Positions 24,291 to 52,259 of a stretch of DNA of 64,000 bases are shown piece by piece. Source of the DNA: Anaerohalosphaera lusitana (GTDB taxonomy: Bacteria > Planctomycetota > Phycisphaerae > Sedimentisphaerales > Anaerohalosphaeraceae); NCBI RefSeq assembly GCF_002007645.1, contig NZ_CP019791.1, positions 3,092,593-3,156,592 on the forward strand, given 5' to 3'. Position numbers and translations under genes: made by a program. Every line of letters begins with the position of its first letter. Position 1 is the stretch's first letter. The notes beneath the pieces are model-generated. The model was not told the origin of the DNA. It saw only the letters and a program-made list of their open reading frames with translations, and did no database searches.

Positions 24291-25586
24291 CTATTCATGT
24301 CGGAGTGATTCGATCGGATCCATATGCGCCGCTCTGTAAGCTGGATATATTCCAAATGCAAGTCCGACTGCTGCACTAATACCGAAGGCCAGAACAAGCG
24401 AACCGGGAGTAATTACCGTCCGCATCTGACCGAAATAGGTAACTAATATGGGAATCAGTGATCCCACCGCCATCCCCAGTATACCGCCGCAGAGTGTCAG
24501 GATCAGCGTCTCTGAAAGGAACTGCATTACAATATCCCTCTGCCTGGCACCAAGTGCACGTCGGATGCCTATTTCGCGTGTACGTTCACTGACAGTCGCC
24601 ATCATAATGTTCATGATACCGATGCCGCCCACCAGAAGGCTGATAGCCGCGATAGAACCAAGGACGATGGTAAATATACGCTGGACATCTTTAGCGCGCT
24701 GCATAAGCTCCAGCGGCACAATAATTTCGTAATCATTCTTCTTGTGAAATCTAGATAGTATAGACTGCACGCTCCGCCTTGTAGACAGAACCTGGTCGAT
24801 TGTGCGCGACTGCACAATAATTTCCTGTAACTCAACACGCTCCAGTGTGGCACCGCCGGCTCCCATTTGGATTGATGTTTCTCCAAATCGCGTCCGGGCC
24901 GTTGTAAGAGGGATATAGATTTTGCCCGTATTCGCACCGCGTTCCTTTTCCGGATTGTTTTTCCCGCCCTGCAGCTCTGATGCAGCTATGTCTTTCTGCG
25001 CAGAAACCACACCGACCACACTGTAATAATCTCCACCCACTTTTATGTTCTGTCCCAGCGGATCGTCAAACAGAAAGAGTTCGTTGCGAACCTTATCATC
25101 GATTACACATACAGCCTGTTTGTAATGTGTATCTGTTGTCGTAATGAAACGTCCATACTTTAGGCTCAAGGACAATATTTCCCGATACCACGGCACAGTT
25201 CCGATGACCTCGGTTGAGACCCGGCTGTTGCGATAAAGAGCCTGATCCGAAATACGTCTGTTTGGCACGAGCACACGCACGTTCGGTATTGCACCGCGAA
25301 ACCGCTCCGCATCGTCGTAAGTCAAACCATATTCTTTGAGCGTCTGCTGTTGACCGATGGATGATTTGTCTTCTGGGGGCGGGACCGTTTTGATGATGAT
25401 GTTTCGACTGCCCAACTGCGATATTTTTTCCTGAGCATCCTGGCTGGCCCCTTCTCCAATCGCCAACATTGAAACGACGGAACTGACGCCGAAAATAATC
25501 CCAAGCATCGTAAGGGTTGACCGTAGACGGTGCATCCAAAGGCTTTTAACTCCCAGTTTCAGCGTGCGTTTGAAACGAAAAATCAT
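24291..25586 (-). CDS. macB: MacB-like ABC transporter permease
   Basis: A 431-residue permease of the MacB/FtsX type. The N-terminal helix (about 20-42, LTMLGIIFGVSSVVSMLAIG) is followed by a large periplasmic domain (MacB_PCD, about 45-290) and three C-terminal helices with the FtsX motif and a signature RTREIGIRRALGARQRDI segment. It works as a dimer with the ATPase encoded just upstream and, in a tripartite pump, with an adaptor and TolC to push substrates out of the periplasm. It is the last gene of the four-gene operon, starting 12 bases after the ATPase stop. Confidence 0.92.
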   Translation of the reverse strand: MIFRFKRTLKLGVKSLWMHRLRSTLTMLGIIFGVSSVVSMLAIGEGASQDAQEKISQLGSRNIIIKTVPPPEDKSSIGQQQTLKEYGLTYDDAERFRGAIPNVRVLVPNRRISDQALYRNSRVSTEVIGTVPWYREILSLSLKYGRFITTTDTHYKQAVCVIDDKVRNELFLFDDPLGQNIKVGGDYYSVVGVVSAQKDIAASELQGGKNNPEKERGANTGKIYIPLTTARTRFGETSIQMGAGGATLERVELQEIIVQSRTIDQVLSTRRSVQSILSRFHKKNDYEIIVPLELMQRAKDVQRIFTIVLGSIAAISLLVGGIGIMNIMMATVSERTREIGIRRALGARQRDIVMQFLSETLILTLCGGILGMAVGSLIPILVTYFGQMRTVITPGSLVLAFGISAAVGLAFGIYPAYRAAHMDPIESLRHE

Positions 25587-25598
25587 GAAAGGCCGCCC

Positions 25599-26330
25599 TT
25601 AATTATATACGTCTTCTGCAATCTGCCCATCGAACAATCTGATCGCTCTTTGAGCATGCGTTGCAATATTCTCATCGTGTGTTACAACTACCAACGTCTT
25701 GCCTTCCTCGTGCAAACGGTCGAGGATGTCGAGGATGTCCGAACCGCTTTGCGAGTCGAGATTACCTGTCGGCTCATCCGCCAAGATGATCAGCGGGTCG
25801 TTCGCCAAAGCCCTTGCGATAGCAACCCGCTGCTGCTGACCACCACTTAATTCCGAAGGACGATGCCGCATTCTGTCACCAAGACCCACCATTTCAGCAA
25901 GCTCTTTGGCCCTTTCGTTACTCTCCTCTTCACTGTAGTTCTGGTAAAACATGGGTATTTCTATGTTTTCTATGACATTCAATTGAGAGATGAGATTGAA
26001 GGACTGAAAAATAAAACCGATCCTTGCTCCGCGTATTTTGGAAAGTTCATCATCTTCCAGTTCTGAGACATCTACCCCTCCCAGTTTATAGCTGCCGCTC
26101 GTGGGCCGATCGAGACACCCAATCATATTCAGCAGTGTAGACTTTCCCGACCCGCTGGGGCCCATTATAGTCACATATTCGCCGGTATTGATCGTCATGT
26201 CAATTTCACGCAATACCCGCAGTTTTGTCGGGCCAAGCTGATAATTCTTGCAAAGTTTTTCCATTAAAAGAATGGACTCTTTTTGCGCATTGGCATCAAT
26301 ATGGGTCATAAGGCTATTATCTTCCATCAA
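25599..26330 (-). CDS. ABC transporter ATPase (MacB/LolD type)
   Basis: A 243-residue ATPase with Walker A GPSGSGKS, the Q-loop IFQSFNLISQLNVIEN, signature LSGGQQQRVAIARAL and Walker B LIILADEPTG with the D-loop NLDSQSG. It powers the neighbouring permease on the cytosolic side. Its start overlaps the adaptor stop in ATGA (26327-26330), so translation is coupled. In classical MacB this domain is fused to the permease; here it is separate, as in many non-proteobacterial pumps. Confidence 0.95.
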   Translation of the reverse strand: MMEDNSLMTHIDANAQKESILLMEKLCKNYQLGPTKLRVLREIDMTINTGEYVTIMGPSGSGKSTLLNMIGCLDRPTSGSYKLGGVDVSELEDDELSKIRGARIGFIFQSFNLISQLNVIENIEIPMFYQNYSEEESNERAKELAEMVGLGDRMRHRPSELSGGQQQRVAIARALANDPLIILADEPTGNLDSQSGSDILDILDRLHEEGKTLVVVTHDENIATHAQRAIRLFDGQIAEDVYN

Positions 26331-28231
26331 TTCTGTCCCCGACTCTGCGTTTCCACACTGCCCCCGCCACCAGGAGCTTTCGATGGTATGTTGTCGCCGG
26401 ACTGCGTTTCTCTCGAGGCGCCGCGTTCGCCCCTTCCGGAACGTCTGCGTCCCTGGGGTGAGCCTTGCTCTTCGCGGGCTGCCTGTCCATCATTGGGTGA
26501 ACCTTCATCTTCGCTCTGGCCATCCTCTGCCCGACGGTTTTTCCATGCATTGTTAGACTGGACATAACCAGATTCCCCAGAGTAACTGTCGAATAAAGGA
26601 GGATTCATAAGCACCTGTTCACCTTCTTCCAGGCCTTCTACGATCTGAACCATTGTGTCCGTAAAAGCTCCTGTGCGAACCTGCCGTTCTTCAGGGCCGG
26701 GCTCTGATTCTACGTAACAGACCTTTCTACCACCACGGTTAGCCACAACCTGGATCGGAACCTGCAGCACCTCTTCCATATCCCTGACCAATATCTCCAC
26801 ACTGCAGGACATGCGTGTTCTCAGAAATTCATGTGTACCATCTATACTTACAAGCGTCTTATATACTTTCAGGTCTGGGTTCATCCAGCCCTGCTGCTGG
26901 TCAGGTAGCGGAGCAACCTCCAGCACTTCGCCATGCAGGGTTCTATCAGGGAAGGCATCCATGATGATCTGTGCCGGCTGACCGGCCCTTACTTTGTCCA
27001 CTTCGGTCTCATGGACGCTGATCTCTGCGACCATGGCAGCGGTATCCGGCATCGAAATAATGGTCTGGCCTTCGTAGACAACTTCACCTTTGGCAATTAT
27101 ACCGCCTGAACCGCCTCGTCTCATAGCTCTGAACGTATCGCCGCTACCGCCCTCTCCGTAGATCACCAGCCCCGGCGCAACCGCTCTAATTGTGCAAAAT
27201 TCTATCTGCTCCCGCAGTTCTTCCACGAAATTGCGTTGCGAATTATACCGCTCCTCCCAATTGTTCAAGCTTGCCTGGGCTTGCGCCAGTCTGGATCGGC
27301 ATTGAGCGTAGGTCCGCTCAAGCTCTCGGCCAGCTTCAACGTAATCACTGAGATATTGCTCAGCGTTCTTCGGAAAATCGTAATTAAGGAACAGATCGAG
27401 ATTAACCTGAGCATTTTCCCGGGAAAACTGACGACTTGTAACATCCAGCCTGTCCCGCTCCAACTGCAGATCCGAAACATAGTCCGCTTCGTGCAGCTTT
27501 TCGGAGCCTGCCAGTGTGTCCTCAGCAGTTGTAAGGTTGCCTTCGGCGAGAACAATCTCGTCTCTGAGCCTTTTGAGTTCCTGCCCTGCTGAAGAACCGT
27601 CCAGAAGGTTAGGGTCATTTTTGACCTTTTCGAGGAAAGGGGACACATGCCCTGTCAGGCTTTCTGCCTCGTCGACGTTTTTCGTCAACTGGGCCGCAAG
27701 CTGTTTGCCGAGATATTTTTCCAGATCAAGCAGTGCAAACCGCACAGTAAGCCTTGCATTTGAACTGTCACTTTCGTTTTGTATGACCTGAATATCATAA
27801 GCTTCTTTGGCGGCTGTATAGTTCTCCTGGTCGCCTGCCAGCTCCATTTCTTCTTCCTGAAGTCGATCTTCCAAACTCGAAGAGTCGAGCTCGACCAGCA
27901 CCATACCATTATCAACATCTTCCTGGGTAACATAGGTTCCAGGCGGCACGATGTCGAGGATGGCAATATCGGATATACCCCTCATACGCTCCACCCGGCA
28001 CTTGTACTGAATGGAATCCTTCGCGCGTATGCTGCCTCCTTCGGTCACTGTCACCATAAGGTCACCTCGGCGAACGGGTACTGTCTGCTCTTCGTTAACA
28101 TCGACAGCGCCAGTCTGTGCAGCCAGAAACCAGACGGTCGCCACGATGACGGCTGCTGCCAAGAATATTATCAGCTTCTTCTTATGTCTCATTGAAGATT
28201 TGCTCTTTTTCTGTGTATTCTTGCTTGGCAT
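26327..28231 (-). CDS. HlyD/MacA-like efflux adaptor, long
   Basis: A 634-residue periplasmic adaptor anchored by one N-terminal helix (about 20-41). It has a lipoyl-like half (VTVTEGGSIRAKDSIQYKC), a long alpha-helical hairpin (about 110-330, Glu/Leu/Gln-rich coiled coil), the second lipoyl half (FCTIRAVAPGLVIYGEG) and barrel plus membrane-proximal domains. The C-terminus adds about 75 residues of low complexity rich in Gly, Ser, Arg, Glu and Gln. It would link the MacB-like permease to the TolC protein encoded just upstream. MacA proteins are about 370 residues, so the hairpin and tail are unusually long. Confidence 0.9.
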   Translation of the reverse strand: MPSKNTQKKSKSSMRHKKKLIIFLAAAVIVATVWFLAAQTGAVDVNEEQTVPVRRGDLMVTVTEGGSIRAKDSIQYKCRVERMRGISDIAILDIVPPGTYVTQEDVDNGMVLVELDSSSLEDRLQEEEMELAGDQENYTAAKEAYDIQVIQNESDSSNARLTVRFALLDLEKYLGKQLAAQLTKNVDEAESLTGHVSPFLEKVKNDPNLLDGSSAGQELKRLRDEIVLAEGNLTTAEDTLAGSEKLHEADYVSDLQLERDRLDVTSRQFSRENAQVNLDLFLNYDFPKNAEQYLSDYVEAGRELERTYAQCRSRLAQAQASLNNWEERYNSQRNFVEELREQIEFCTIRAVAPGLVIYGEGGSGDTFRAMRRGGSGGIIAKGEVVYEGQTIISMPDTAAMVAEISVHETEVDKVRAGQPAQIIMDAFPDRTLHGEVLEVAPLPDQQQGWMNPDLKVYKTLVSIDGTHEFLRTRMSCSVEILVRDMEEVLQVPIQVVANRGGRKVCYVESEPGPEERQVRTGAFTDTMVQIVEGLEEGEQVLMNPPLFDSYSGESGYVQSNNAWKNRRAEDGQSEDEGSPNDGQAAREEQGSPQGRRRSGRGERGASRETQSGDNIPSKAPGGGGSVETQSRGQN

Positions 28232-28257
28232 AAACTCGAACCTTCATTAATTTGCAA

Positions 28258-29868
28258 TTACCTGTCTTGTTCCCACATTCCGTCAGGCTTAACCCGCAGG
28301 ATACCTACATCGCGGAAGAAACTCAACTTCGCGATCATATGATCTACCAATGCATTGAGCACATCGTCCTGGGCCTGCACCAGTGCATCTTCCGAGTCGA
28401 GCAGCAGTCGGACCGTTCCCCGGCCGTACTGGAGTGACAATTTTTCGACCTGAACTCTCTTTTCAGCAAGCTCCAGGCCCATCTTCTGGATCCGGTAACT
28501 TTCAGCCGTCTGAACGAGTTCTCGGTATGCATCACGAACCTGAAGCTTGACCCTGTCCACCTCTTCATCATAGTCTCGCTGTTGCCGCTGCACATTTATC
28601 AGCGCTTCCCTGTAATCGTTACGCTCCGCCCTACGGTCCAACGGCAGATTAGCGGTAATCCCTGCACTGTATGCTCCGTCATGAAATCTAAGGCGGGTTA
28701 TTTCAGTATCGGGAGTTGAATCGACGTCAGCACTTGCTACTAAATCCACCTGCGTTACCAAACCATCCGCTGCAAGAATTAGTTTTCTTTCAGAATCGTC
28801 CAATCTGTCCCGCACATTGCTCAAATCGAGACGAAGTTCCTGTGCTGTTTTTATCGCCTCTTCCGCGCTGTATTCCGGCTCACTGACACCTATATCCTGC
28901 AAAGCCGTTAATTCGTCCGGGTCCAGCTCCACATCAACATCTGTGGGCAGAGCAAGTGTTATCTTGAAATTATCAAGAGCCTGCTCATAGTTCTGAACAG
29001 CCGAAACGACATTCTGCTCGGCACTGAGCAGTCGCTGTTCGGCTTCTGCAAGATCGTATGCCGGCCGCTGCCCCACCTCTACCTCCATGCGAAGCTGATT
29101 GGTCGAATCGACAAGTCGCTGATAGCTGGCTTGCTGGATTTCAACGCGGTTTTTCTGCAAAAGGACCCTGTAGTACTCGCTGATAACCGAAACTACAAAA
29201 TCCTTACGAAATCTATTGAACGATCTTATGTTGTAAAGAACGTTTCTCTCTGCCTGTGTAAGGTTCTCACGTGCTATACGACCGGCTCCATTGCCGATCA
29301 GGGGTGCAGCCAAACTGGCAGACAAAACAGATCCCAGCGATGTCTGCGGATCCCCTGTCAGATACCTAAACCAGTCCGCTGTCAGGCTGGTGCCTATCAG
29401 GATACCATCGCCTAAAAGGAAATCTCTTCTCACACCACCCGATGACTCTATGGTCGTCGACTCGTCAGCGGGTGTATTTTCATAAAAGGCATCTACTGTC
29501 CCGAACCACTGCGTGGCATATTGATAGCGCGTAAGCGTCAGATCGAGCGCAGACAGATAAAGAGACTCCTTCTGTGTCTGGTAAGATCTATTGAAGTTGG
29601 TAGCCATCTCTACCGCACTGGCCTGACTGAGCACGCCGGACTCAGGAATCCTTGAAACCACATCAATCTGATTCGGTTCGCCGTCGCTTATCCTGTAATT
29701 GGCTTTATAACCAAATCTCTCCTGCCATTTATTATTCAGGATCTTATAGACATCTTCGTCCGCTTCCGACTTGTATTCATCCGGCGTCTTGCACCCAAAT
29801 GAAAAAACCAGCAATCCAACTAACGCAAAAAGAGATATTGATCGCACAGACCTGCACAAGTTACTCAT
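28258..29868 (-). CDS. TolC-family outer membrane efflux protein
   Basis: A 536-residue outer membrane channel protein. The signal peptide ends in a lipobox-like SFGC (Cys at about 25), so it may be lipidated as many OprM-type channels are. Two long helical repeat units (about 165-330 and 370-520) with the AERNVLYNIRSF and ALDNFKITL features are typical of OEP repeats. The frame is open to 29955, but the ATG at 29868 is preferred because it begins the signal peptide and has GAGAGG ahead. It heads the operon TolC - adaptor - ATPase - permease, a complete tripartite exporter. Confidence 0.9.
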   Translation of the reverse strand: MSNLCRSVRSISLFALVGLLVFSFGCKTPDEYKSEADEDVYKILNNKWQERFGYKANYRISDGEPNQIDVVSRIPESGVLSQASAVEMATNFNRSYQTQKESLYLSALDLTLTRYQYATQWFGTVDAFYENTPADESTTIESSGGVRRDFLLGDGILIGTSLTADWFRYLTGDPQTSLGSVLSASLAAPLIGNGAGRIARENLTQAERNVLYNIRSFNRFRKDFVVSVISEYYRVLLQKNRVEIQQASYQRLVDSTNQLRMEVEVGQRPAYDLAEAEQRLLSAEQNVVSAVQNYEQALDNFKITLALPTDVDVELDPDELTALQDIGVSEPEYSAEEAIKTAQELRLDLSNVRDRLDDSERKLILAADGLVTQVDLVASADVDSTPDTEITRLRFHDGAYSAGITANLPLDRRAERNDYREALINVQRQQRDYDEEVDRVKLQVRDAYRELVQTAESYRIQKMGLELAEKRVQVEKLSLQYGRGTVRLLLDSEDALVQAQDDVLNALVDHMIAKLSFFRDVGILRVKPDGMWEQDR

Positions 29869-30143
29869 AAACCTCTCGTTCTTTGATAACCGTATTTGAT
29901 GACTAGACGTGCGGGAAACACGTTTATTGCAAAGAAATGTAATTTTTGGCCACATTGATCAATGCCTGAGATACGGAAAGAAGCAGAAAACCACGATAAG
30001 GCTGGCAAACCTGACTCAAATAAAAGCAGAATCGCAAAGATAAAGTGGGTTGCTCAATACCGCAATGTATCATAACATCTTCTATTGCCGTAATACAAAC
30101 GGATTATATGGGACCAAAATTAATCCGGGGGGGACAAGAAAAA

Positions 30144-32519
30144 ATGCGGGGGACCAAATGGTATATTATGGCCATTTTGTTTTTGCTGATCGGGCTGGGT
30201 ACCACGAGTGCACAGGATGAAAAGGCTGAAGTGCATGTTGGCGTGGTCATAGATGGTCCATGGGAGAACAACGCGGGAGTATCGAATCTTTTCGTCAGCG
30301 AAATACTCAAGCTCACAGGTAACGAATTCAATGTCGTTTTTTCGCCGAAGCATACCTTTATAGCCGACTGGTCACAGGAGAGCATCGAGGGGGGGATCGA
30401 GAGATTTCTTGCGGACGAAGAAATAGACATTGTGATGACACCGGGGATCATTGGTTCGCACTATCTGAGCACTCGAGGGCCGCTTGGCAAACCCGGCATT
30501 GCACCGTTCGTTCTGGATGCCAAAATACAGAGCCTGACGGTCACCGATTCTGGAACCAGCGGTGTGAAAAATCTGACTTATGTGCTCATAGGCGGCAGCG
30601 TCTCTGAGAGCCTCACGGATTTTCTTGAGGTCGTCAAATTCAAACACATAACATTTCTGATTGGTCAGCCGGTTGCAAAGGCGATACCACGGTTACCAGG
30701 TGGGCTGGTTCGTGAGGCTGAAAAGATGGATCTAAGCGCGGACTATCTCGAGGTCAGTGAATCCGCTGAAATAACTCTTAAAAAGCTCAAAGCTAGAACT
30801 GATGCAGTTTACGTCAACCCGTTGATGAATATAAGCGGTAAAGAGCTGGCCCGACTTGCTGAAGGACTCAAGGAACGAGATATTCCGAGTTTCTCAGCAA
30901 TCGGTAAGGACGGAGTGGAAGTTGGCTTTCTAATGTCCACGCTTCCGGAATCGCTGTTCCAGAGAATTGCAAGGCGAACGGCATTAAATCTGCAGTCGAT
31001 ACTGCTGGGCACGGAACCGAGCGAGCTGCCTGTAAGACTTGCCGGCAGAGAGGAACTGACGCTGAACGTCGAAACGGCTGAGGCGATCAGGCTTGAGATA
31101 CCGTGGAATCTACGTCTGGAGGCGGACCTGATCGGCAAGACAGAAAGGGAAAGACTCCCGAAGCTGAGTATGGAGCGGGTACTGTCCGAAGCGGTTGCAA
31201 AGAACCTTGACATCGCGGCACAGGAACGGATGGTTGCTGCGGGGTCTGCACAAGTAAGAGATGCTCTGGCCGTGTTGCTGCCTCAGATCGATTTATCCAC
31301 GCAGGTTGTTCAGGTAGATAAGGACAGGATCGAAGCTGCGCCGGGTGAAGCAGCGGAGCGGGAATACAGCACAGGATTTGAATTCAGGCAGCTTTTATAT
31401 TCCGAGCAGGCATGGGCAAGTTACGACATAGAAGAGTTTCTGCAGGCCGCCCGTTTGCAGGAGCTCAACGAAGTCAGGCTGGATATAACGCAGCAGGCCG
31501 GTACGGCTTACCTGGACGTATTGCGTGCGCAAACAAGGCTCCGGGTGCGTATGAGTGATCTGCGTCTGACTCGTTCAAACCTGCAGATGGCCAGGGAAAG
31601 ACGTGAGGTCGGAGTCAGCGGGCCGGGCGAAGTGTACAGGTGGGAGAATCGCCTTGCCACACGAAAACAGGAGGTACTAAATGCCGAAGCGGATCTGCAG
31701 ATAGCTATGCTAGAGGTAAACCGCCTTCTACACAGACCGATTGATATGCAGTTCGCTGTAGCGGAGACAAGTCTTGGAGATGATGAGCTGCTTCTCAACA
31801 GATTGAACTTTTTTGAAAGCCTGAGTACGAGGAAAGCGGTTTTGAACTTTGCGGATGCTTTGGTTAAGACCGGCCTTGCCAGATCGCCGCAGATACGGAA
31901 CGTCAAAGCATTGATAGATGCCAAACGCAGGGAACAAAAAAGCACTGAAAACGCGATGTGGCAACCTGATGTGGCTTTCGTATTCGACTTCTCTCATCGT
32001 TTCGCAGAAGAAGGAGTAGGAGAAAGATTTCTTAAAGCGAGCCCGGAAAACGACACGGATTGGGCAGCGGGCATTTCAATTGATTTCCCCTTGTACAGCG
32101 GAGGAAGTAAAACCGCCAGGATCATCCAAACCACCCAGGAACTGGCTGAACTTATTTTCACGCTCGGTTCCGCTCGCGAACAGGTCGAACAGCGGGTGCG
32201 GGCCGCAATGGAAACTGCGACGGCATCATACAGGAACATCGGATTGTCGAGAAAAGCCGAAGCTGCGGCAGCTAAGAATCTGGATCTGACGGTCGATTCT
32301 TATGCGCAAGGCGTGGTGTCGATACTGGATCTGCTCGATGCTCAGAACGCGGCAGTGCAGGCCGAGCTGGCATCCGCGAACGCGGTTTATGACTTCCTAA
32401 TAGACCTTATGGAAGTCCAGCGGGCAGCAAGCATTTTTAACATACTTATGGAGGATGAAGCCGAGGAGATAATGTTCGGACAATTGAGACAGGCAGTGAA
32501 AACTGATACCGGGAGGTAG
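30144..32519 (+). CDS. ABC substrate-binding-like domain fused to a TolC channel
   Basis: A 791-residue protein with a Sec signal peptide (about 1-23, ending TTSAQ). Residues about 28-320 resemble type I periplasmic substrate-binding proteins of the ABC_sub_bind (TrpX-like) group: VHVGVVIDGPWENNAGV at the start, ITFLIGQPVAKAIP and DAVYVNPLMNISGKELARLAEGLKERDIP later. Residues about 350-785 form two TolC/OEP repeats (LSMERVLSEAVAKNLDIAAQERM; GISIDFPLYSGGSKTARI). Frame and codon use are continuous through the junction. The start at 30144 is preferred over 30045 because it begins the signal peptide. A solute-binding domain on an outer membrane channel would sit in the periplasm; function unknown. 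Confidence 0.85.
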   Translation: MRGTKWYIMAILFLLIGLGTTSAQDEKAEVHVGVVIDGPWENNAGVSNLFVSEILKLTGNEFNVVFSPKHTFIADWSQESIEGGIERFLADEEIDIVMTPGIIGSHYLSTRGPLGKPGIAPFVLDAKIQSLTVTDSGTSGVKNLTYVLIGGSVSESLTDFLEVVKFKHITFLIGQPVAKAIPRLPGGLVREAEKMDLSADYLEVSESAEITLKKLKARTDAVYVNPLMNISGKELARLAEGLKERDIPSFSAIGKDGVEVGFLMSTLPESLFQRIARRTALNLQSILLGTEPSELPVRLAGREELTLNVETAEAIRLEIPWNLRLEADLIGKTERERLPKLSMERVLSEAVAKNLDIAAQERMVAAGSAQVRDALAVLLPQIDLSTQVVQVDKDRIEAAPGEAAEREYSTGFEFRQLLYSEQAWASYDIEEFLQAARLQELNEVRLDITQQAGTAYLDVLRAQTRLRVRMSDLRLTRSNLQMARERREVGVSGPGEVYRWENRLATRKQEVLNAEADLQIAMLEVNRLLHRPIDMQFAVAETSLGDDELLLNRLNFFESLSTRKAVLNFADALVKTGLARSPQIRNVKALIDAKRREQKSTENAMWQPDVAFVFDFSHRFAEEGVGERFLKASPENDTDWAAGISIDFPLYSGGSKTARIIQTTQELAELIFTLGSAREQVEQRVRAAMETATASYRNIGLSRKAEAAAAKNLDLTVDSYAQGVVSILDLLDAQNAAVQAELASANAVYDFLIDLMEVQRAASIFNILMEDEAEEIMFGQLRQAVKTDTGR

Positions 32520-32583: not shown

Positions 32584-35500
32584 TCAATTGTCTATTCGCA
32601 TCCAGTTGCCGGTCAGCAAGACAAGGTCATCGACCTCAACGCGGTTGTCAGCGTTGAGGTCAGCATAGGAACACAGGCCGCAATCGCTGCTGAGCCACCA
32701 TTGCGCAAAAAGCGAAAAATCCGTAAAATCGACGTCGCTGTCAAGATCCACATCGCCGGCTATCGAGGTAACGGCAGAAACTGTCTGAGAAGACTGGGTC
32801 TCGTTCTGCCACAGACTCTTATCCCGGGCCTTTACACTGAACTGATACTCCGTTTCCGGCGTCAAACCGGTAAGTGTATAGGTTGTGTCATCCTGCCACG
32901 CTGAGTCGTACTGACCGTTTGTTGTGCAAGTGAAGAAGTATTCGACTCCGTCTGCGTCATTTACGTCGGCTGCAGTCATTGTAACGGTAGTCGGGCCAAC
33001 GCTGTGCGGAGCTGTAGCCCAAGTAATCGGGTCAGGTGTGGGGCCCGTATAGTCCGCTTCCGTATAGGGTTTCAGTTTGCTGCCGGTGATGACCTGCCGT
33101 GAGATGCCTGGGCCCTGCCACGCTACCGCAAGGTTGTCACCGCCCCCGCCTTCTTTCATCAGGGCCTCAATGTAGTAAGTATTGCCGGCGGTAAGCCAGA
33201 AATATGCCGACTGCTGCTCGGGATAGTCCGTCCATGACCTGGAAGAAGTCCAGCCCGGCACGGAGGCAACCTCAACAGCACTATCGGCTTTGCCGTCGGT
33301 ACTGAACAACAGACTGCCGTTATCATCGGAGGCGATCCAGAAGGTGTAGCTGCCCGTGACGGTCGGCTTGAGAAAAGCCCGCATGCGCACGCCGTAGCTG
33401 TCCAATCTGTCGGTTGGTGCCTCAAAGCTTTGCATTACAGCTACCTCATCCGGCGAATACGGGTATTTCGAGCTGCCTGTAAGATCGGAGACAGCACTGC
33501 CTCCAATGCTTTTAAAGGTTTCCATCAGCGCGCCCTGATCGCTTGCAACCACGAGCTCAACGCCGGCGGTCATATCAGAATCTTTTACCTTGTATGTAAA
33601 CGAGTCCGAACCGTAGTAGCCAGCATCGGGCATATATGTTATGGTTCCGTTGTCATTTACTACCGCGGTGCCGTGAGCGGGCTGAGTACAGCTTTGCAGG
33701 GTCGAAGGACTGCCGCCCTCCAGTTTAGAGTCGTTACGAAGGACATCGATCACATTCTTGACACCGTGATAGATAGCCTTTTTGTCATCGCCAAGCGTAT
33801 AGATATTGGTGTTGACACCGGTAATTATGCCTTTCGCGTCAAGTTCGAATTCGTAAATGCGGTCGGCGATGCTAACTTTCGTGATGTAGCCCTTATCATT
33901 ACGTTCGAGCCAGGCGTGATCAATCGTGTACTCGGCATGACGATATGGAGTTGTCACTCCGTGTGTATCGTACATGACGACCTTATTCAGGCCCGCTGAC
34001 ACGAAATCCAGGAACGTAACTGCTTCATTGATGTTGGCCTTTAGCGGATCGAGGTCGTTCTCAACCGCCCTTCTGAAACGATCTATTGCACCGATCAGCC
34101 GTCCTTCAGAGTGCGCCCAGTGATGATTGGCCTGTGTCGCGAGAGACTCCTGCGGTGCGCTTAGGAAGAATTTGATGTTGATACGCATCGAGGCCTGCTC
34201 GTTCCACGCACTTCCGGGACCTGTGGCCCAGTATGCATCCCATGCCTCGTCCCATGTCTGGGTGCTTTCGTTCCAGAGGCCCGTGTCCTTGAAGTGCTGT
34301 TTGGTTGCGTTCCAGTCGATCCAGTCATTGCTACCGGCAATTACGTCAGGTCCCCCTCCCTGAACGAGGAACTGCCCCCATCGCCGCCGCATGTCCTTGT
34401 TGGCCCGGCTGTTTACATAGCCGTCAAGTGAATGGGTAACTTCATGGCCCATTACAAAGGTGAAGTAGTCACCCCTGCACGCATCGTTGTAAAGAACCTG
34501 GTTTACCGGCTGCTGGAGATCCCAGTCCCATTCTGCCGAATCGTTGCCTTCGCCCCAGTTAAAGGTATTCTTCGTACTGGTGAAGTGCGCGACCATGCCG
34601 CCGCGGCCGTCGTTATAGTAATGGTCCAGCGTCAGTACCGCATCCGGGAAAAGCTCCTGCGGGTGCCAGGTCATAAAATCGCGAACTGATTCGATCTGGC
34701 CGCGTGTTGCTTTCTGATTGTCTCCCACATGCAGGGAGCACATCAAATAAATTTCGCGATGAACACCGGTGAGCCCGACCGCATCTGCTACATTCTGACG
34801 ATGCGTAGGTGTATCGGGCAGCATATAATGCATGGTCATCAGATTCTGGCCTGCGATACTTGGAACATGGTGATAATAACTAACGTTCAGCGGATCGTCC
34901 ATCTGCAGGAAGTCGTATTTCTGTACATGCTGCGAATACTGCTGGAACATCTGCTGGCGTTCGTTAACGGTGGCTGACTGCATGTTTGCAACTATGCCGC
35001 TAAGAGCGGTTCGGACTTCATTGAGCAGAGCCTGGCTGTTGGCTTCAAGAGCAATGCCCAGATCCGAAAGATTAGCATCGTAAATCGCTTCGAGATCGCT
35101 TATGTAGTCGGCAACTGTTTTGGCCTGGCCCCAAGCGATGTAAACCTTATCTCCATAATGGCCGCCGATCAGTGCATCGTAAACGCCGTCACCATTGTAA
35201 TCCGCAAAATCAACGATCGCGCCGTCAGTTGCGGATTTCATATTGACCGAGGCACCAGTTGGGTCGGTAAAGACCATTGTACCGCCGGTATTGAGTCCGC
35301 CGTTGAGTTCGGGATCGAACCAGTAAAGCACGCTGCCCCAGTTGATGCCGCGTATGAAATCTGACATGCCGTTTCGGTTGATGTCAAATATCCGCGGATA
35401 CAAATTGTACGAGCCGCTCAAAACAGTCTCGTAGTTCTCATACCGCGCGTCAGATGCTGTTCCGACATTTTTGTAAAGATTCATGCCGCCCGACCATGAG

Positions 35501-36999
35501 CCGGTAATAATGTCTGTCAGCCCATCATTGTCCCAATCGCCTGCATCGAATCGCTGGTCCGTCAGCACGAGATATGAACCGTCGGTTTTCCTGGCGTACT
35601 GTACGGATGAATAGCTTGGAGTCTGCCCTGCGGCTGCGGTGTTCTCGAAGACAGCAACTTTTCTCGTGTTATCGACAGCGACCAGATCGAGCACGCCGTC
35701 GCCCGTCATATCAGCCAGAGTGATCGGAAGATTGCCGGAGCCCAGATAAATATTCGAACCGCCGGCTTTGACACGCACGCCCGCAGCGAAATTTGCGTTC
35801 GCAGGTGATCCATTGTTAATGTAAAGCCATACGCTTCTGCTGTGGCCTACAAGAATATCGTTGTCTCCGTCGCCCTCCCAGTCGATCGCTCGGGGGACTC
35901 GCATGCCGTTATGGGAAATGTCCGAACCGGCTGCCTGCAGCGGCTGGAAATCGTCAAACACGGTCGTTCTTTTTGACGCATCCGGGCCGGGATCCTCAAA
36001 GATAGTCAGATTCATTTTTCCTTTGCTGAAGCCGCCCTTCTGATCCTCTATCGTAACTGTAAACGAATCGTTGCCGGAGTAACCAGCATCGGCAGTATAT
36101 GTGAATGTGCCGTCGCCGTTATAGGTCGCCGATCCGTGGTCGGGCTGAGTGAAAGAGACAACTCTGAGGTCGTCTTTCTCAGGGTCGTAGCTCTTGAACA
36201 AAACGCTTTCTGTGGAAAAAGAAGCGGTATTTATACCGTTTGTCTTTGTGGGCCACACCTTGGGAGCGTGGTTGTCGATCAGGGTGCCTATTGTGGCTGG
36301 ATCGAGAACTGTTTCGTAAATGTACAGTTCGTCGAGTCGCCCCTGAAAATATCTCGGGCTGGAAGAATCGTCGGTTTTCACTATCGAATCAACAGCCACG
36401 TTAACCTGACCCTGCGCACCGGTCGCCTCATCATTGATTGCCCCGTCAACGTACACCTGTGTCTGACCTGTTGAAGAGTCACGCGTAAATGTCAAATGGT
36501 GCCAGTGGCCGTCATTGACGGGATCATCCGTTACAGCGAGTTTCTGTCCATTGACAGCGATAAGCATTCGGCCCTGTGAATCAATGCTGCCGATATAAAT
36601 ACTGCCTGCTCCGGCCGAAGCACCTACTACGGCTGGTGACTGGGCCAATGTGGTATTTCCGCTTTGCTGTGTTCGGACCCAAAAAGCGACGCTGAATGTG
36701 CCGGACAGCGAAGAGGAAAGATCAGCAGTCGATGACAGGTACTGGTCAGTGCCGTTGAATTCGAGACAGGTGTATTGACGGCCTGACTGAAAAGCCGCCC
36801 CTGTCATGTTCTGCAGATCAAGATCAGCCCCACCAACAGGATCAGCAACAGCCTGAGCGGTGCTGACAGCGCCGAAGGCATCATCGTGCCAATCCGGCCC
36901 CTCGTCGAAATTCCAGTGATGAACCAGTCCGGCGGGAATCGCAAATGCCGGAGAAACGGTCAGTACAGCTACAGCAATCAAGTACAGGTAATTTTTCAT
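32584..36999 (-). CDS. Giant secreted LamG/FG-GAP/metallopeptidase/PA14/dockerin protein
   Basis: A 1471-residue exported protein. Domains in order: signal peptide (1-19); LamG/concanavalin-like lectin (about 20-240); a cadherin-like beta domain (about 260-340); FG-GAP/VCBS-type repeats with DxDxDG calcium loops (about 370-650); a helical region; a putative zinc metallopeptidase section with HEVTH at about residue 850 and a following NEQASMR helix; a second cadherin-like domain; a PA14 domain (about 1170-1310, GSYTFWIASDDNGSL); a fibronectin-III-like domain; and a dockerin-like tail with two EF-hand loops (GDVDLDSDVDFTDF, ADLNADNRVEVDDL). It probably binds and processes extracellular polymer. 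The ATG at 36999 follows AAGGG. The peptidase family is not certain. Confidence 0.85.
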   Translation of the reverse strand: MKNYLYLIAVAVLTVSPAFAIPAGLVHHWNFDEGPDWHDDAFGAVSTAQAVADPVGGADLDLQNMTGAAFQSGRQYTCLEFNGTDQYLSSTADLSSSLSGTFSVAFWVRTQQSGNTTLAQSPAVVGASAGAGSIYIGSIDSQGRMLIAVNGQKLAVTDDPVNDGHWHHLTFTRDSSTGQTQVYVDGAINDEATGAQGQVNVAVDSIVKTDDSSSPRYFQGRLDELYIYETVLDPATIGTLIDNHAPKVWPTKTNGINTASFSTESVLFKSYDPEKDDLRVVSFTQPDHGSATYNGDGTFTYTADAGYSGNDSFTVTIEDQKGGFSKGKMNLTIFEDPGPDASKRTTVFDDFQPLQAAGSDISHNGMRVPRAIDWEGDGDNDILVGHSRSVWLYINNGSPANANFAAGVRVKAGGSNIYLGSGNLPITLADMTGDGVLDLVAVDNTRKVAVFENTAAAGQTPSYSSVQYARKTDGSYLVLTDQRFDAGDWDNDGLTDIITGSWSGGMNLYKNVGTASDARYENYETVLSGSYNLYPRIFDINRNGMSDFIRGINWGSVLYWFDPELNGGLNTGGTMVFTDPTGASVNMKSATDGAIVDFADYNGDGVYDALIGGHYGDKVYIAWGQAKTVADYISDLEAIYDANLSDLGIALEANSQALLNEVRTALSGIVANMQSATVNERQQMFQQYSQHVQKYDFLQMDDPLNVSYYHHVPSIAGQNLMTMHYMLPDTPTHRQNVADAVGLTGVHREIYLMCSLHVGDNQKATRGQIESVRDFMTWHPQELFPDAVLTLDHYYNDGRGGMVAHFTSTKNTFNWGEGNDSAEWDWDLQQPVNQVLYNDACRGDYFTFVMGHEVTHSLDGYVNSRANKDMRRRWGQFLVQGGGPDVIAGSNDWIDWNATKQHFKDTGLWNESTQTWDEAWDAYWATGPGSAWNEQASMRINIKFFLSAPQESLATQANHHWAHSEGRLIGAIDRFRRAVENDLDPLKANINEAVTFLDFVSAGLNKVVMYDTHGVTTPYRHAEYTIDHAWLERNDKGYITKVSIADRIYEFELDAKGIITGVNTNIYTLGDDKKAIYHGVKNVIDVLRNDSKLEGGSPSTLQSCTQPAHGTAVVNDNGTITYMPDAGYYGSDSFTYKVKDSDMTAGVELVVASDQGALMETFKSIGGSAVSDLTGSSKYPYSPDEVAVMQSFEAPTDRLDSYGVRMRAFLKPTVTGSYTFWIASDDNGSLLFSTDGKADSAVEVASVPGWTSSRSWTDYPEQQSAYFWLTAGNTYYIEALMKEGGGGDNLAVAWQGPGISRQVITGSKLKPYTEADYTGPTPDPITWATAPHSVGPTTVTMTAADVNDADGVEYFFTCTTNGQYDSAWQDDTTYTLTGLTPETEYQFSVKARDKSLWQNETQSSQTVSAVTSIAGDVDLDSDVDFTDFSLFAQWWLSSDCGLCSYADLNADNRVEVDDLVLLTGNWMRIDN

Positions 37000-37139
37000 C
37001 TCACACCCTTCTATTTCACACAATTCACTAAGAAGTATACAACATCTATCGTCTAAAAAGCTTCTTTATTTTAGCAGAATGCTCTCTGATAAGCAAATTC
37101 GGCCAGTATTTAACGTCATCTCGTGGGCAAATTGGAGCC

Positions 37140-41032: not shown

Positions 41033-41192
41033 TTTGCGCGAAAGGCCCGAGGTTTGCCACAAATTGCGATTTTGTATATTGCAAGACAGGACATTGGACC
41101 ACATAATGACAGAACAGCTTTCAGGCAGACAAACAGATGGGGGTAATACTGAAGTGCTTGTCCACAGGCATTATAAACCAATCGTTAAGGTA

Positions 41193-42293
41193 ATGCTGAA
41201 AAAGACGCAGACTGCCAACTGCATGTTAATTGCGTCATCGCTGATACTCCTCTGCCTCTCAGCAGGCTGCAATCATCAAGAGCCCGAAGAAATTGTCAGG
41301 CCCGTCCAGTGGGCCCGAGTCGAGGCGAGAACTTCAGGTTTCACGAGAACTTTCTCAGGTGTGTCGCAGGCCTCAGTCAGATCCGAATTGAGTTTCAGAG
41401 TGGGCGGAACCATTGAGAGGATTGCTGTCGATGAGGGTGATCCCGTTTCGAGCGGACAGATACTTGCCGAACTTGAAAAAGAAGATTTCAGACTCAAGAT
41501 CAAGGAAGCAGAGGCTGCTTTAGCCAAAGCTAAGGCACAGGCCCGTAACGCTCAGGCGAACTACACGCGAGCGAAGCGACTGTACGAACAAAACAATATA
41601 TCCCTTAACGAACTGGACGTTGCGAGGGCTGAAGCTGAATCAGCCCAGGCAAACGTCGACGTCGCCCAGACGGCACTGAGACTGGCTGAGAGAAGGTTTG
41701 AGTATACAACCATGAAAGCCAATCGGGAGGGATGGGTAACACGCATTCACGCAGAAGAAAATGAGAATATCTCTTCCGGGCAGCCCGTCATGACCCTTGT
41801 CTCGGGCGAAAAAATGGAAGTACAAATAGGCATACCGGAAGATCTCATCGGATCAGTTAAAAAAGGGCAGCAGGCAGCAGTAGAGTTTGAAGCCTGGCCT
41901 GAACGCGAGTACGAAGGAGAAGTTACAGAGGTTGGTGTGACAGTCGGCCGGACCGCGACGACGTTTCCGGTTGCCGTGACCTTGAAAAAGTCTGATACAA
42001 AAGTGAGACTGGGCATGGCTGCTGATGTCACACTCTATTTTGCGGGTAAGCGAACGGCATTTCTCGTCCCCGCCATTGCAGTTGGCGAGGATATAAACGG
42101 TAAATTTGTGTATGTGCTCGAAGAAAAAAACAACGGCTATGCCATAGCGACTCGTCGAAAAGTAATCACAGGCAGATTGACAGAGGAAGGACTGGAAGTG
42201 CTTTCTGGGTTGGAAAGAGGTGAGCGGATCATAACCCATGGAGTCACGCGTATTTCAGACGGGGAAAAGGTCAGGATGCTCAGGGAGAAGTAG
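41193..42293 (+). CDS. RND efflux periplasmic adaptor lipoprotein
   Basis: A 366-residue membrane-fusion protein. The signal peptide ends in lipobox LSAGC (Cys26). The biotin/lipoyl halves flank a helical hairpin (about 95-155, ARNAQANYTRAKRLYEQNN), with the barrel and membrane-proximal domains after it (SVKKGQQAAVEFEAWP; RKVITGRLTEEGLEVLSGL). It couples an inner-membrane RND pump to an outer channel. In-frame upstream ATG codons at 41034 and 41106 exist; 41193 is preferred since it gives a normal lipoprotein signal peptide, though its ribosome site (AAGG) is very close. The pump gene follows after 2 bases. Confidence 0.9.
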   Translation: MLKKTQTANCMLIASSLILLCLSAGCNHQEPEEIVRPVQWARVEARTSGFTRTFSGVSQASVRSELSFRVGGTIERIAVDEGDPVSSGQILAELEKEDFRLKIKEAEAALAKAKAQARNAQANYTRAKRLYEQNNISLNELDVARAEAESAQANVDVAQTALRLAERRFEYTTMKANREGWVTRIHAEENENISSGQPVMTLVSGEKMEVQIGIPEDLIGSVKKGQQAAVEFEAWPEREYEGEVTEVGVTVGRTATTFPVAVTLKKSDTKVRLGMAADVTLYFAGKRTAFLVPAIAVGEDINGKFVYVLEEKNNGYAIATRRKVITGRLTEEGLEVLSGLERGERIITHGVTRISDGEKVRMLREK

Positions 42294-42295
42294 CA

Positions 42296-45200
42296 ATGCC
42301 TTCAAATGTTACGCGTTGGGCCATCGAGAAAAACCGTATCATGATAACGCTTCTCGTGTTGGTTGCGATCGGCGGAGTGGCTGCATATCTTACAATGCCG
42401 CGAAGCGAGGACCCCGGCTTCATCGTAAGGACCGCTCTGGTGACATGCATGTTTCCCGGCGCTACCGCCGAACGGATCGATCAGCTCGTAGCCGATCCCC
42501 TGGAGAATTCGATCCGTCAGATGCCGGAGGTAGAGACCATACGAAGTCAGTCAAAGATGGGGGCCGCGATAATCAAAATCGATATTTCGGAACGCTACAC
42601 AGAGCTGCGTCCCATCTGGGACGATCTGAGAAGACGTGTAGCTGATGCGAAAAACGAACTTCCTCAGGATGTCATCGGCCCTTTTGTCAATGACGATTTC
42701 GGGGATGTCTTCGGGATAATCGTGACTGTTACCGGCGAAACAGGCCCGTCCGGCGGGGCTTACGATTATTCACGGCTTGAAGACATTGCAAGAGATACGA
42801 GGGATGAACTCCTTCTCATTGAAGAGGTCGCGAGAGTAGAAATACAGGGCATTCAGGAGGAAAGAATATTCATAGAATACAGCAATGCAAAACTTGCTGA
42901 ACTTGGCATATCGCCCTATCAGCTCAAGCAGATTCTGGACAATCGCAACATTGTCATTCCGGGCGGCAGTATCACTACAGGAGATGAACGGATCGTATTG
43001 GAGCCAAGCGGTAATTTCGAATCGCTTGAAGACCTCAGGCAGACAGTAATTCGACTGCCGGAGAGATCGGAACTGGTTTATTTGCAGGATATAGCGGAGA
43101 TAAACAGGGGATATATGGACCCTCCGGAAACCAAGGTTCGTGCAAACGGAATACCGGGCCTGTCACTTGGCATAAATCTTCGTGAAGGAGGCAATATAAT
43201 CGAGTTGGGCGAACAGGTGAAAGAGCTGATCCGCAGGCTTGAGCGTTATTACCCCGTGGGCATCGATTTCGACATAATAATATTCCAGCCGTTCCACGTA
43301 AGCAGACGGGTAAGGACTTTCAGCCTGAACCTGATCCAGGCAATCACCATAGTTGTCATTGTCATGCTTTTGACAATGGGTGTCAGGACCGGGTTTGTCG
43401 TGGGGGCACTCATACCAATGACGATACTGTCCAGCTTTCTCATCATGTCAGTTCTGGGCATCTGGATCGATCAGATATCACTGGCGGCGATGATAATTGC
43501 ACTTGGTATGCTGGTGGACGCTGCTATAGTAGTTTGCGAGTCTACAATGGTGCTCCGCAACGAAGGCAAGGATCCTGTGCAGGCAGCAATACTGGCCGCA
43601 GATGAGCACAAGCTGCCTCTGATGACGTCCGCACTGACGACATCGGCTGCATTCTTACCGATCTTTCTGGCGGAATCGGAGGTGGGAGAATACACCGCGC
43701 CCCTGTTCAAGGTGGTTACGATTACGCTTCTGGCCTCATGGGTGCTGTCAATGACAATGACGCCGCTGCTGAGCGTCTGGTTCATGAGGGTAAAAAAAGA
43801 GATCAAAGCGGAAAGCTTCAACACAAGGGTGATGCAGAGATACCGCTCACTGTTGATCTCGATGCTGAAGCATCCGATCCTGAGTCTTTCGATCACTGCT
43901 CTGATATTCATAGCTTCAATAATATCATTTGGATTTGTCCCGGAAGAATTTTTCCCGCCAAGTGATAAAACCACGTTCACTGCAGAGTTCGAACTGCCTT
44001 ACGCAACTCCAATAGAAAGAACAGACAAGATCGTCAGGGAAATAGAAGCTTTCATGCAGCGCGAACTGAAAGCAGATGGCGACAGGGCCGAGGGCATTAT
44101 GAACTGGGCCACTTTCATCGGTCAGGGTCCCCCAAGATTCGAACTGCCCTTCAGTCCGGTTCAGGCCGCCCCGGAGTATGCCATGATGCTTGTCAATACT
44201 ACCTCGGTGGAAGTGATAACAGAGAAATGTATACCGGCACTACAGGATTTCACAGAGCGATATCCAGGCATGATAACCAAGATCAGACCGCTGCAGTTGG
44301 GTCCGCCGATCGTCTCACCAATAGAGGTTCGAATTTCCGGCGAAGACAATGAACGGCTTTTTGAAAATGTTGAACTTGTGCGCAAATACATGGACGAAAA
44401 CAGCAACATCAGAAATGTGCGCGACGACTGGGGCCGACGGGTGAAAAAGATATTCGTTCGGGTAAGTCAAACCAGAGCTCGTCGCGCCGGGCTCACCAGC
44501 CGGGACGTGGCAGTATCGCTGCAGACGGTCCTCAGCGGCCTCGAATCCACACAGTACCGTGAAACTGAGGATGTAATACCCGTGGTGATCAGAACGGTCA
44601 CCGCGGAAAGGGATGATATTGGCAAACTCGAAACGCACAACATCTACGTTCAGCAGACAGGTCGATCCGTGCCGCTGGAGCAGGTGGCGGATCTGGAACT
44701 TCAATGGGATTGGCCCAAGATATACAGGCGAAACGGCAGAAAAACTGTAACTCTTTTTGCCGACGTCGCAGGCGATGTTACTGCGATCGAAACTGCGAAT
44801 CGGCTGGACGAATGGCTCAGTGATGAGGCAGAAGACTGGCCTTTGGGTTATAACTATGAACTCGGCGGTGAACTCGAAAAGTCGGGCGAGTCAAACGCAT
44901 CCATTCTGGAAAAACTTCCAATCGCCGGCCTGGTCATCTTTCTGCTGCTGGTCGCGCAGTTCAACTCGCTACGCAAAACATTGATCATTCTACTGACGGT
45001 ACCACTTGGAATAATAGGCGTTGTCTTCGGGCTGGTGGTTACGCAATCATATTTCGGCTTTATGACACTGCTCGGGATCGTGGCGCTTACCGGAATAGTG
45101 GTTAACGATGCGATCGTGCTTCTGGAAAGGATCGATCTTGAGCGTGAGTATTACGGTTTTGAGGTACACAGAGCTATAGTTGAGGCCGCCCAGCGGAGAA

Positions 45201-45430
45201 TGCGACCGATCCTGCTGACCTCCGTAACGACCGTATGCGGTTTACTGCCGCTCTGGCTGGGAGGCGGCATAATGTTCGAACCTATGGCGGTGACGCTCAT
45301 CTTCGGCCTGATCTTTGCGACTGTGCTGACACTCGGCGTTGTGCCGGTCATATATGCCGTTCTCTATCGTATCAATTTCAAGGGGTATACGTATCATTTT
45401 GACCCTAGCGGGCAACGCACTGCCGATTAA
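42296..45430 (+). CDS. RND efflux pump permease (AcrB/MMPL-type)
   Basis: A 1044-residue inner-membrane proton-driven pump with the usual twelve helices in two halves, each with a large periplasmic loop. TM4 contains ALGMLVDAAIVVCE with the acidic residue of the proton relay; FVPEEFFPPSDKTTF and VNDAIVLLERIDLE are further hallmarks. Motifs fit the hydrophobe/amphiphile efflux (HAE) group, and its length matches. Substrate is unknown. No outer membrane channel gene follows; the TolC proteins at 28-32 kb are candidates. It converges with the rmlD-like gene with 5 bases between stops. Confidence 0.95.
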   Translation: MPSNVTRWAIEKNRIMITLLVLVAIGGVAAYLTMPRSEDPGFIVRTALVTCMFPGATAERIDQLVADPLENSIRQMPEVETIRSQSKMGAAIIKIDISERYTELRPIWDDLRRRVADAKNELPQDVIGPFVNDDFGDVFGIIVTVTGETGPSGGAYDYSRLEDIARDTRDELLLIEEVARVEIQGIQEERIFIEYSNAKLAELGISPYQLKQILDNRNIVIPGGSITTGDERIVLEPSGNFESLEDLRQTVIRLPERSELVYLQDIAEINRGYMDPPETKVRANGIPGLSLGINLREGGNIIELGEQVKELIRRLERYYPVGIDFDIIIFQPFHVSRRVRTFSLNLIQAITIVVIVMLLTMGVRTGFVVGALIPMTILSSFLIMSVLGIWIDQISLAAMIIALGMLVDAAIVVCESTMVLRNEGKDPVQAAILAADEHKLPLMTSALTTSAAFLPIFLAESEVGEYTAPLFKVVTITLLASWVLSMTMTPLLSVWFMRVKKEIKAESFNTRVMQRYRSLLISMLKHPILSLSITALIFIASIISFGFVPEEFFPPSDKTTFTAEFELPYATPIERTDKIVREIEAFMQRELKADGDRAEGIMNWATFIGQGPPRFELPFSPVQAAPEYAMMLVNTTSVEVITEKCIPALQDFTERYPGMITKIRPLQLGPPIVSPIEVRISGEDNERLFENVELVRKYMDENSNIRNVRDDWGRRVKKIFVRVSQTRARRAGLTSRDVAVSLQTVLSGLESTQYRETEDVIPVVIRTVTAERDDIGKLETHNIYVQQTGRSVPLEQVADLELQWDWPKIYRRNGRKTVTLFADVAGDVTAIETANRLDEWLSDEAEDWPLGYNYELGGELEKSGESNASILEKLPIAGLVIFLLLVAQFNSLRKTLIILLTVPLGIIGVVFGLVVTQSYFGFMTLLGIVALTGIVVNDAIVLLERIDLEREYYGFEVHRAIVEAAQRRMRPILLTSVTTVCGLLPLWLGGGIMFEPMAVTLIFGLIFATVLTLGVVPVIYAVLYRINFKGYTYHFDPSGQRTAD

Positions 45431-47587: not shown

Positions 47588-47821
47588 CTATAAGCAGTTA
47601 TGAAACTTATAGGCCTTCTTTTTTTGCTTATTTTTCAGCAAAACTACTCAAAGATATGTTGTAATTACGGAATTTCACGATTAAATAGAATATGCGGGTG
47701 ACACTTTCAGCAGGGAAGCGAACAGAATTAACGGATTTTTCGAGCAATCTTGAAGCTGGAAGGCCTAAAATTGCCAAACAGATTGTTGCCATCGGAGGCC
47801 AAAAAGAGGGGACGCATTTCG

Positions 47822-51527: not shown

Positions 51528-51554
51528 GTAATAAGTTATACGAAAGAGGTTATT

Positions 51555-52259
51555 ATGAATCAGCATGTAAAAGCGACAGATGTAAAAAAGGCCCGCATTC
51601 TGCTGGTAGATGACCACCCCATAGTCAGGCAAGGATTAAGTGAACTGATCAACCACGAAGACGACATGGTTGTCTGCGGCCACGCTGAAGAATCCTATGA
51701 AGCAATGTCTTTCATCCGAAATGAGACTCTTGACATGGTCATAGTTGACATTTCCCTGCGTGAAACCAGCGGGATGGAACTGATCAAGGACATACGTGCA
51801 CAGAGACCTCACATGCCTATACTCACACTTTCAATGCATGACGAGTCACTTTACGCTGAGCGTGCGCTGCGGGCAGGAGCGAACGGGTACGTTATGAAAC
51901 AGGAAGCCACAGACGTATTGGTTGGCGCAATTCGCAAGGTCATGGACGGCGAATTACATCTCAGTGACAATATGGCTGCCAGAATGGTACGCAAGCTAGT
52001 CGGCGGTAAAATGAAAGTGGAATCATCCCCGATTGACCGTCTCAGCGATCGGGAACTGGAGGTATTTAGACTAACAGGCCAGGGCCTTGGAACAAGGCAC
52101 ATTGCTGAAAGGCTCCATCTGAGCATAAAAACGATCGAAACCTACAGAGCACACATCAAGGAAAAGCTTAGCTTAGGTGATGCTGCCGAACTTTTGCAGT
52201 ATGCCATACAGTGGGTAAACAGCGAAGTGATGTCGCAACCGCCTGAAACGCGGACCTGA
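51555..52259 (+). CDS. NarL/FixJ-type response regulator
   Basis: A 234-residue transcription factor: receiver domain with Asp65 in MVIVDISLRE and DDHPIVRQGL at the start, then a LuxR-type helix-turn-helix (about 165-225, LSDRELEVFRLTGQGLGTRHIAERLHLSIKTIETYRAHI). It is the probable output of the two HisKA_3 kinases ahead, which is the standard partner family. AAGAGG precedes the ATG. Target genes are unknown, but the neighbouring polysaccharide genes are candidates. Confidence 0.95.
   Translation: MNQHVKATDVKKARILLVDDHPIVRQGLSELINHEDDMVVCGHAEESYEAMSFIRNETLDMVIVDISLRETSGMELIKDIRAQRPHMPILTLSMHDESLYAERALRAGANGYVMKQEATDVLVGAIRKVMDGELHLSDNMAARMVRKLVGGKMKVESSPIDRLSDRELEVFRLTGQGLGTRHIAERLHLSIKTIETYRAHIKEKLSLGDAAELLQYAIQWVNSEVMSQPPETRT

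Follow-up and report, generated by a model that had tools for sequence, protein, structure and literature searches.

A TolC-type outer-membrane factor fused to a substrate-binding-protein-like domain recurs in efflux operons

The usual view of efflux pumps places their control at the inner membrane and in contact with the periplasmic adaptor, TolC being a duct that such contact opens. In Escherichia coli, the lipoprotein YbjP docks on TolC in a 3:3 ratio, according to two reports (PMC13082787, PMC13095208). The HP1489–HP1486 system of Helicobacter pylori, a member of the Campylobacterota, is encoded by a single operon with genes for an outer-membrane factor (OMF), an adaptor and an ABC permease; in the text of its paper, the terms 'substrate-binding' and 'ABC_sub_bind' occur 0 times (PMC9570263). 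Three binding proteins of known structure are relevant here: 3lft (SP1069/TrpX), which binds Trp, 3lkv (VC_1101), which binds Phe, and 6hni (CD0873), which binds Tyr, as given in PMC6816091.

Here we describe a protein of Anaerohalosphaera lusitana that can be set beside these systems. Like the OMFs TolC, OprM and CusC (Pfam OEP, PF02321), it has an OEP repeat pair and a signal peptide, and its relatives lie in efflux operons; unlike them, it carries an extra domain of around 305 residues before repeat 1 and has no lipid anchor. With ABC_sub_bind (PF04392) proteins it shares the two-lobe class-I fold, several scaffold residues and a C-terminal domain stretch, but its domain sits on a channel rather than serving an importer. 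The comparison with TolC–YbjP, in which an extra periplasmic part, there a separate lipoprotein, also accompanies TolC at 3:3, is by analogy. The first-pass annotation did not recognise the design as described; likewise, we found no paper on a fusion of TolC to a substrate-binding protein (SBP) in the open-licence full texts searched, as judged by titles and abstracts.

The gene lies in a window of 64,000 nucleotides, the whole stretch of DNA that we analysed. It is a single stop-free frame within an 824-aa frame whose earliest possible start is a GTG at 30045; the ATG at 30144 opens a Sec-type signal peptide, read by eye as MRGTKWYIMAILFLLIGLGTTSA before the cut and Q after it. A lipobox pattern scan found none in the window protein, and none within the first 60 residues of the nine fused proteins scanned that have an N terminus. 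Pfam OEP matched the C-terminal half in two stretches (E = 1.7e-40, 139.3 bits against a cut-off of 22). The NCBIfam model for the TolC subfamily proper, TIGR01844, gave 122.7 bits against a cut-off of 225.15, and we therefore file the protein as an OMF and not as a member of the TolC subfamily.

Table 1. Features of the fused gene and of neighbouring efflux genes, in window positions.
Feature	Position	Strand	Length	Basis
Fused gene: signal peptide, ABC_sub_bind-like class-I SBP domain and TolC-type OMF	30144..32519	+	791 aa	Translation of the window
Signal peptide without lipobox, residues ~1–23	30144..30212	+		Sequence reading; lipobox scan
N-terminal SBP-like domain, residues 27–332	30222..31139	+		hhalign, PDB profile matches, model, fold search
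TolC/OEP repeat pair, residues ~339–766	31158..32441	+		Pfam OEP; E. coli TolC chains in the PDB by phmmer
HlyD-type periplasmic adaptor, likely partner (inferred)	41034..42293	+		Pfam
AcrB-type RND transporter, likely partner (inferred)	42296..45430	+		Pfam ACR_tran, E = 2.1e-157
Divergent TolC-type OMF, HlyD adaptor, ABC ATPase and MacB-type permease	24291..29955	-		Pfam

Taken alone, the N-terminal half of the window protein scored below threshold with Pfam ABC_sub_bind (17.6 bits against a gathering cut-off of 25.9) and matched NCBIfam TrpX weakly (22.6 bits against 390). Three of six homologues scanned did pass the ABC_sub_bind cut-off; we file the window protein as a divergent relative rather than a member of the family. 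We compared a profile of eight fused N termini with one of eleven stand-alone ABC_sub_bind proteins by hhalign and obtained a probability of 98.8% (E = 9.1e-17) over 277 columns, with no more than 0.2% for five column shuffles and 0.1% for the TolC half. The stand-alone set came from the window's phylum and used 11 of 12 loci, one at a contig edge (L037) being dropped; the fused set used eight of ten, without a locus whose N terminus is cut by the contig end (L023) and without Cetobacterium. A chance match was ruled out by the column shuffles together with the profile–profile comparison.

A profile of six fused N termini matched 3lkv (2.8e-10), 3lft (2e-7) and 6hni (0.057) in the PDB; a single-sequence phmmer search of the PDB with one Sulfurimonadaceae N terminus (L008) returned nothing relevant. 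A domain model predicted from a three-row alignment was of moderate quality (pLDDT 63.5, pTM 0.58), and its three best VIA-align matches, over model residues 1–273, were again 3lft, 3lkv and 6hni (Z = 14.8, 14.3 and 14.2; next 13.3). Foldseek ranked 6hnj, 6hni, 3lkv and 3lft at the top, with modest TM-scores of 0.46–0.57 for 3lft, 3lkv and 6hni. Together, the profile and model evidence supports a relationship of the N-terminal half to ABC_sub_bind (TrpX-like) class-I binding proteins, and the possibility named by the first-pass annotation, that this half might not have an SBP fold, is answered by the profile comparison in favour of that fold. Its central claim, that one polypeptide joins an ABC_sub_bind-like domain to a full TolC repeat pair, is confirmed: both parts lie in one intact frame. 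In the window genome the fused domain is the sole ABC_sub_bind-like match at E ≤ 0.01. Elsewhere in the same phylum, a stand-alone ABC_sub_bind frame overlaps the start of a frame that looks by eye like a histidine kinase (L046:550-3862), so the fold may serve as a sensor there.

Eight positions are identical in all 11 stand-alone rows of the alignment with the eight fused domains. Of these, G101 and P117 (8/8) and P248 (7/8) persist among the fused proteins. The other five are lost: 0/8 fused proteins have Gly 146, Trp 223, Asp 227 or Gly 276, and 1/8 has Ala 262. To judge from the fold, Asp 227 and its loop probably contact the ligand in relatives. With five of the eight invariant positions gone, the unaltered amino-acid binding of the solved relatives is unlikely in the fused domain. 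N143, G261, G289 and N308 are common to most rows, fused and stand-alone alike. Other residues are specific to the fusions: an acidic residue at 37, immediately after model strand 1 (residues 29–36), in all ten rows that can be read there, as well as R277 and N282, each present in 10 of 11 rows. Asp 174 is kept in 8/11 fused rows and is Gly in the window protein. This pattern suggests that the SBP-like domain is under a constraint of its own. In both Cetobacterium versions the second lobe is shortened, and a ligand cleft therefore cannot be essential for every member.

First noted in the window gene, the architecture turned up in one frame at ten further distinct loci in Campylobacterota, Fusobacteriota and the window's phylum, giving 11 with the window once two near-copies (L054 and H11) are excluded. 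Nine of the ten show 17–38% identity in each half; the tenth is the second of two Cetobacterium paralogues. A homologue on plasmid pSULKU01 of Sulfuricurvum kujiense has 98% query coverage at 29.6% identity, and two Sulfurimonadaceae metagenome-assembled genomes (MAGs) hold full-length relatives (L008, L009). Among 200 genomes of the phylum of these MAGs, three matched at E ≤ 1e-30, two of them new and the third the MAG of L009. At that threshold, 5 of the 392 genomes from the window's phylum gave a match, the window genome included; three others carry the fusion (G064, G241, G383) and one (G325) a plain OMF. The closest relative, in G383, is 36% and 38% identical in the two halves and lacks its first third, the contig ending there. 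Within the window's order, three of 148 genomes matched and only the window genome has the fusion; the matches in G325 and G648 proved to be plain OMFs without an N-terminal domain and were rejected. These genome counts may be low, since for each genome the searches scored no more than a few top candidates; one query (P0001) against genome contigs found no relative. The rare and scattered occurrence of the fusion suggests that it has been transferred horizontally or has often been lost. Directly 5' of the plain OMF in G325 lies a frame that looks by eye like a transposase (L052:3459-4877), the OMF itself apparently being without a signal peptide.

The Cetobacterium N termini are weak members: against a profile from which it had been left out, one gives a two-piece match at 9e-10, and the same profile did not report the other at E ≤ 10. 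We assign both to the family by their TolC half, by the tblastn match that the first paralogue gives at 95% coverage and by the 58% identity between the paralogues. In a tree of the TolC half, one branch divided ten fused proteins from eight plain OMFs (support 96/93; 98% of 200 bootstraps), and in a tree of the N-terminal domain ten fused and eleven stand-alone proteins separated with support of 100/100; both trees carried warnings of long branches and uneven composition. Within the fused group the trees differ: in the N-terminal tree the Cetobacterium pair, at the end of a very long branch, falls among Campylobacterota, and the window protein lies near the stand-alone proteins, which is not so in the TolC-half tree. 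We take these differences as noise, with domain swaps or a second fusion event possible. The trees fit a single origin of the fused proteins without proving it.

An adaptor gene directly follows the fused gene in 9 of the 11 distinct loci; the exceptions are the window and G241, where the fused gene lies on a 6.9-kb contig. In Sulfuricurvum and four further loci (L008, L009, L024, L025) the adaptor is followed by an RbbA-type ABC protein and an ABC-2 permease, and in G383 by the start of an RbbA-type ABC gene; Pfam underlies these calls for L009 and the G383 adaptor, and annotation, position and N-terminal sequence the rest. An RND pump follows the adaptor in G064 (Pfam) and for both Cetobacterium paralogues (annotation). 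A TetR-type gene lies 5' of the fused gene in the five Campylobacterota loci, called by Pfam in one, annotation in one and by-eye sequence in three. Rather than a lone oddity, the fusion is a part that recurs in efflux operons.

In two of the five Campylobacterota loci, the fused-OMF/RbbA operon overlaps at its end with an LpxR-type gene for an outer-membrane protein (PF09982, lipid A deacylase family; L024:2947-3939, L025:2747-3757), and on the Sulfuricurvum plasmid phospholipase A and patatin genes lie 2–7 kb upstream. These neighbours hint at a lipid or envelope link.

We tentatively propose, at somewhat less than an even chance, that the fused protein is the OMF of a tripartite efflux pump whose SBP collar is ligand-responsive, with the adaptor and RND pair at 41034–45430 as its likeliest completion. 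The protein would be the exit duct of the pump, each protomer bearing an additional class-I binding-protein domain, and would trimerise as TolC does. A full-length structure prediction was poor (pLDDT 45.3, pTM 0.28) and was not used, so the placing of the domain on the channel is one that we infer. The SBP fold ends around 10 residues before TolC repeat 1, and the three domains should therefore form a collar outside the duct, near the equatorial zone where the TolC N-terminal helix begins; this would be the zone in which YbjP docks on E. coli TolC. In an altered cleft, the collar may bind a solute of the periplasm that is not a free amino acid, and binding would then modulate pump assembly or channel opening. 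A ligand-sensing collar is, marginally, our first choice over a structural collar and over substrate loading.

The domain could instead be a retired binding protein, a purely structural collar that takes no ligand and serves to stiffen the duct, to touch peptidoglycan or the adaptor, or to keep the trimer steady; we regard this as distinctly possible, if on balance doubtful. Such a collar could replace the lipid anchor of OprM-type factors, in line with the absence of a lipobox from the nine scanned proteins. Conservation cuts both ways, as the scaffold residues G101, P117 and P248 persist while the other five invariant positions are lost, but the acidic residue 37, where class-I cleft loops lie, and R277 and N282 are conserved, and a structural part would hardly need a two-lobe hinge fold. 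The Cetobacterium versions, which lack part of lobe 2 and remain in a pump operon, suit a structural role, as does YbjP, reported to act by neither allostery nor signalling (PMC13082787). Ligand sensing could also take the form of a ligand-gated export channel, a design that the first-pass annotation had raised, in which the three domains would sense a periplasmic solute in a reshaped cleft and open or recruit a duct shared by RND and ABC-2 engines; we consider this form unlikely.

Which pump the fused channel serves in the window genome is a separate question. Six RND loci were found there at E ≤ 1e-20, five of them with an OMF within 3 kb; the pair in the table is the only one without an adjacent OMF. 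Its adaptor begins 8.5 kb downstream of the fused gene on the same strand, with three genes between, two of which lie on the opposite strand; the three encode a large LamG/PA14 protein, a sulfatase and an alpha-galactosidase. Among the six pumps of the genome, this RND transporter is the best match to the partner in G064 (632 bits; next 588, a small margin) and to that in Cetobacterium (625; next 487). Its adaptor is likewise the best among those compared, at 131 (G064) and 160 (Cetobacterium) bits against 112 and 89 for the next, a comparison that covered the frames within the sequence taken for each of the six RND loci, together with the window adaptors, but without the adaptor of RND locus L032. 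We therefore think it most likely that this adaptor and RND pair complete the pump. Against this, the fused gene is not in an operon with the pair, its closest relative, in G383, goes with an RbbA-type exporter rather than an RND pump, and the genome has four other OMF genes that also lie away from RND genes. Candidates for an RbbA-type partner in this genome were rejected: all 13 matches at E ≤ 1e-15 were the size of an ATPase cassette (frames of 235–434 aa).

A partnership with the divergent MacAB-like cluster next to the fused gene, across at least 188 bp of intergenic DNA, appears improbable, even though partners of ABC type occur in 6/11 fused loci: the cluster contains an OMF gene of its own and a MacB-type rather than an RbbA-type transporter, and it is the window RND pair that resembles the known RND partners of fused genes. 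The LamG/PA14 protein, between the fused gene and the sulfatase/alpha-galactosidase pair (32584-37023, minus strand), is a secreted-looking protein of 1479 aa with LamG, PA14, FG-GAP and Ig-like parts and, by eye, a dockerin-like C terminus. At 47750-52259, two histidine kinases in succession, the first with PAS and receiver domains, are followed by a LuxR-type response regulator; the frames of the two kinases overlap.

Substrate loading, in which the domain would capture a periplasmic substrate and pass it to the pump as an importer SBP does, but for export, is very unlikely. In importers, permeases receive their substrate from SBP domains, the periplasm is where RND and MacB-type pumps pick up substrates, and the fused genes are operon-linked to pumps; however, the same fusion also accompanies RbbA-type ABC-2 exporters, which are thought to draw substrates from the cytoplasm or inner membrane, and in TolC the N-terminal helix runs on the outside of the channel wall, well away from the sites at which substrates enter RND pumps. 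We rank loading lowest because of this distance from pump entry and this association with ABC-2 exporters; direct loading of the channel is also hard to reconcile with a domain expected outside the tunnel wall. A frame error or chance joining of two genes, a possibility named by the first-pass annotation to which the sub-threshold Pfam score of the window protein alone might lend colour, has a negligible chance and is excluded by the ten other one-frame loci, among them the complete plasmid pSULKU01 with one annotated CDS (WP_041667226.1, 'ABC transporter substrate binding protein').

Both halves belong to known families; their fusion is a recurrent and, as far as the literature searched shows, undescribed variant of the OMF of tripartite efflux. 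It can go unnoticed behind annotations such as 'TolC family protein' or 'ABC transporter substrate binding protein', as it already does in public records. The fusion provides, in covalent form, a counterpart to YbjP, the TolC accessory lipoprotein described recently. A recurrent duct that carries a binding-protein fold offers a way to ask whether the outer-membrane end of a pump senses ligand; if the gated-channel reading were true, this would be an efflux pump regulated at its outer-membrane end.
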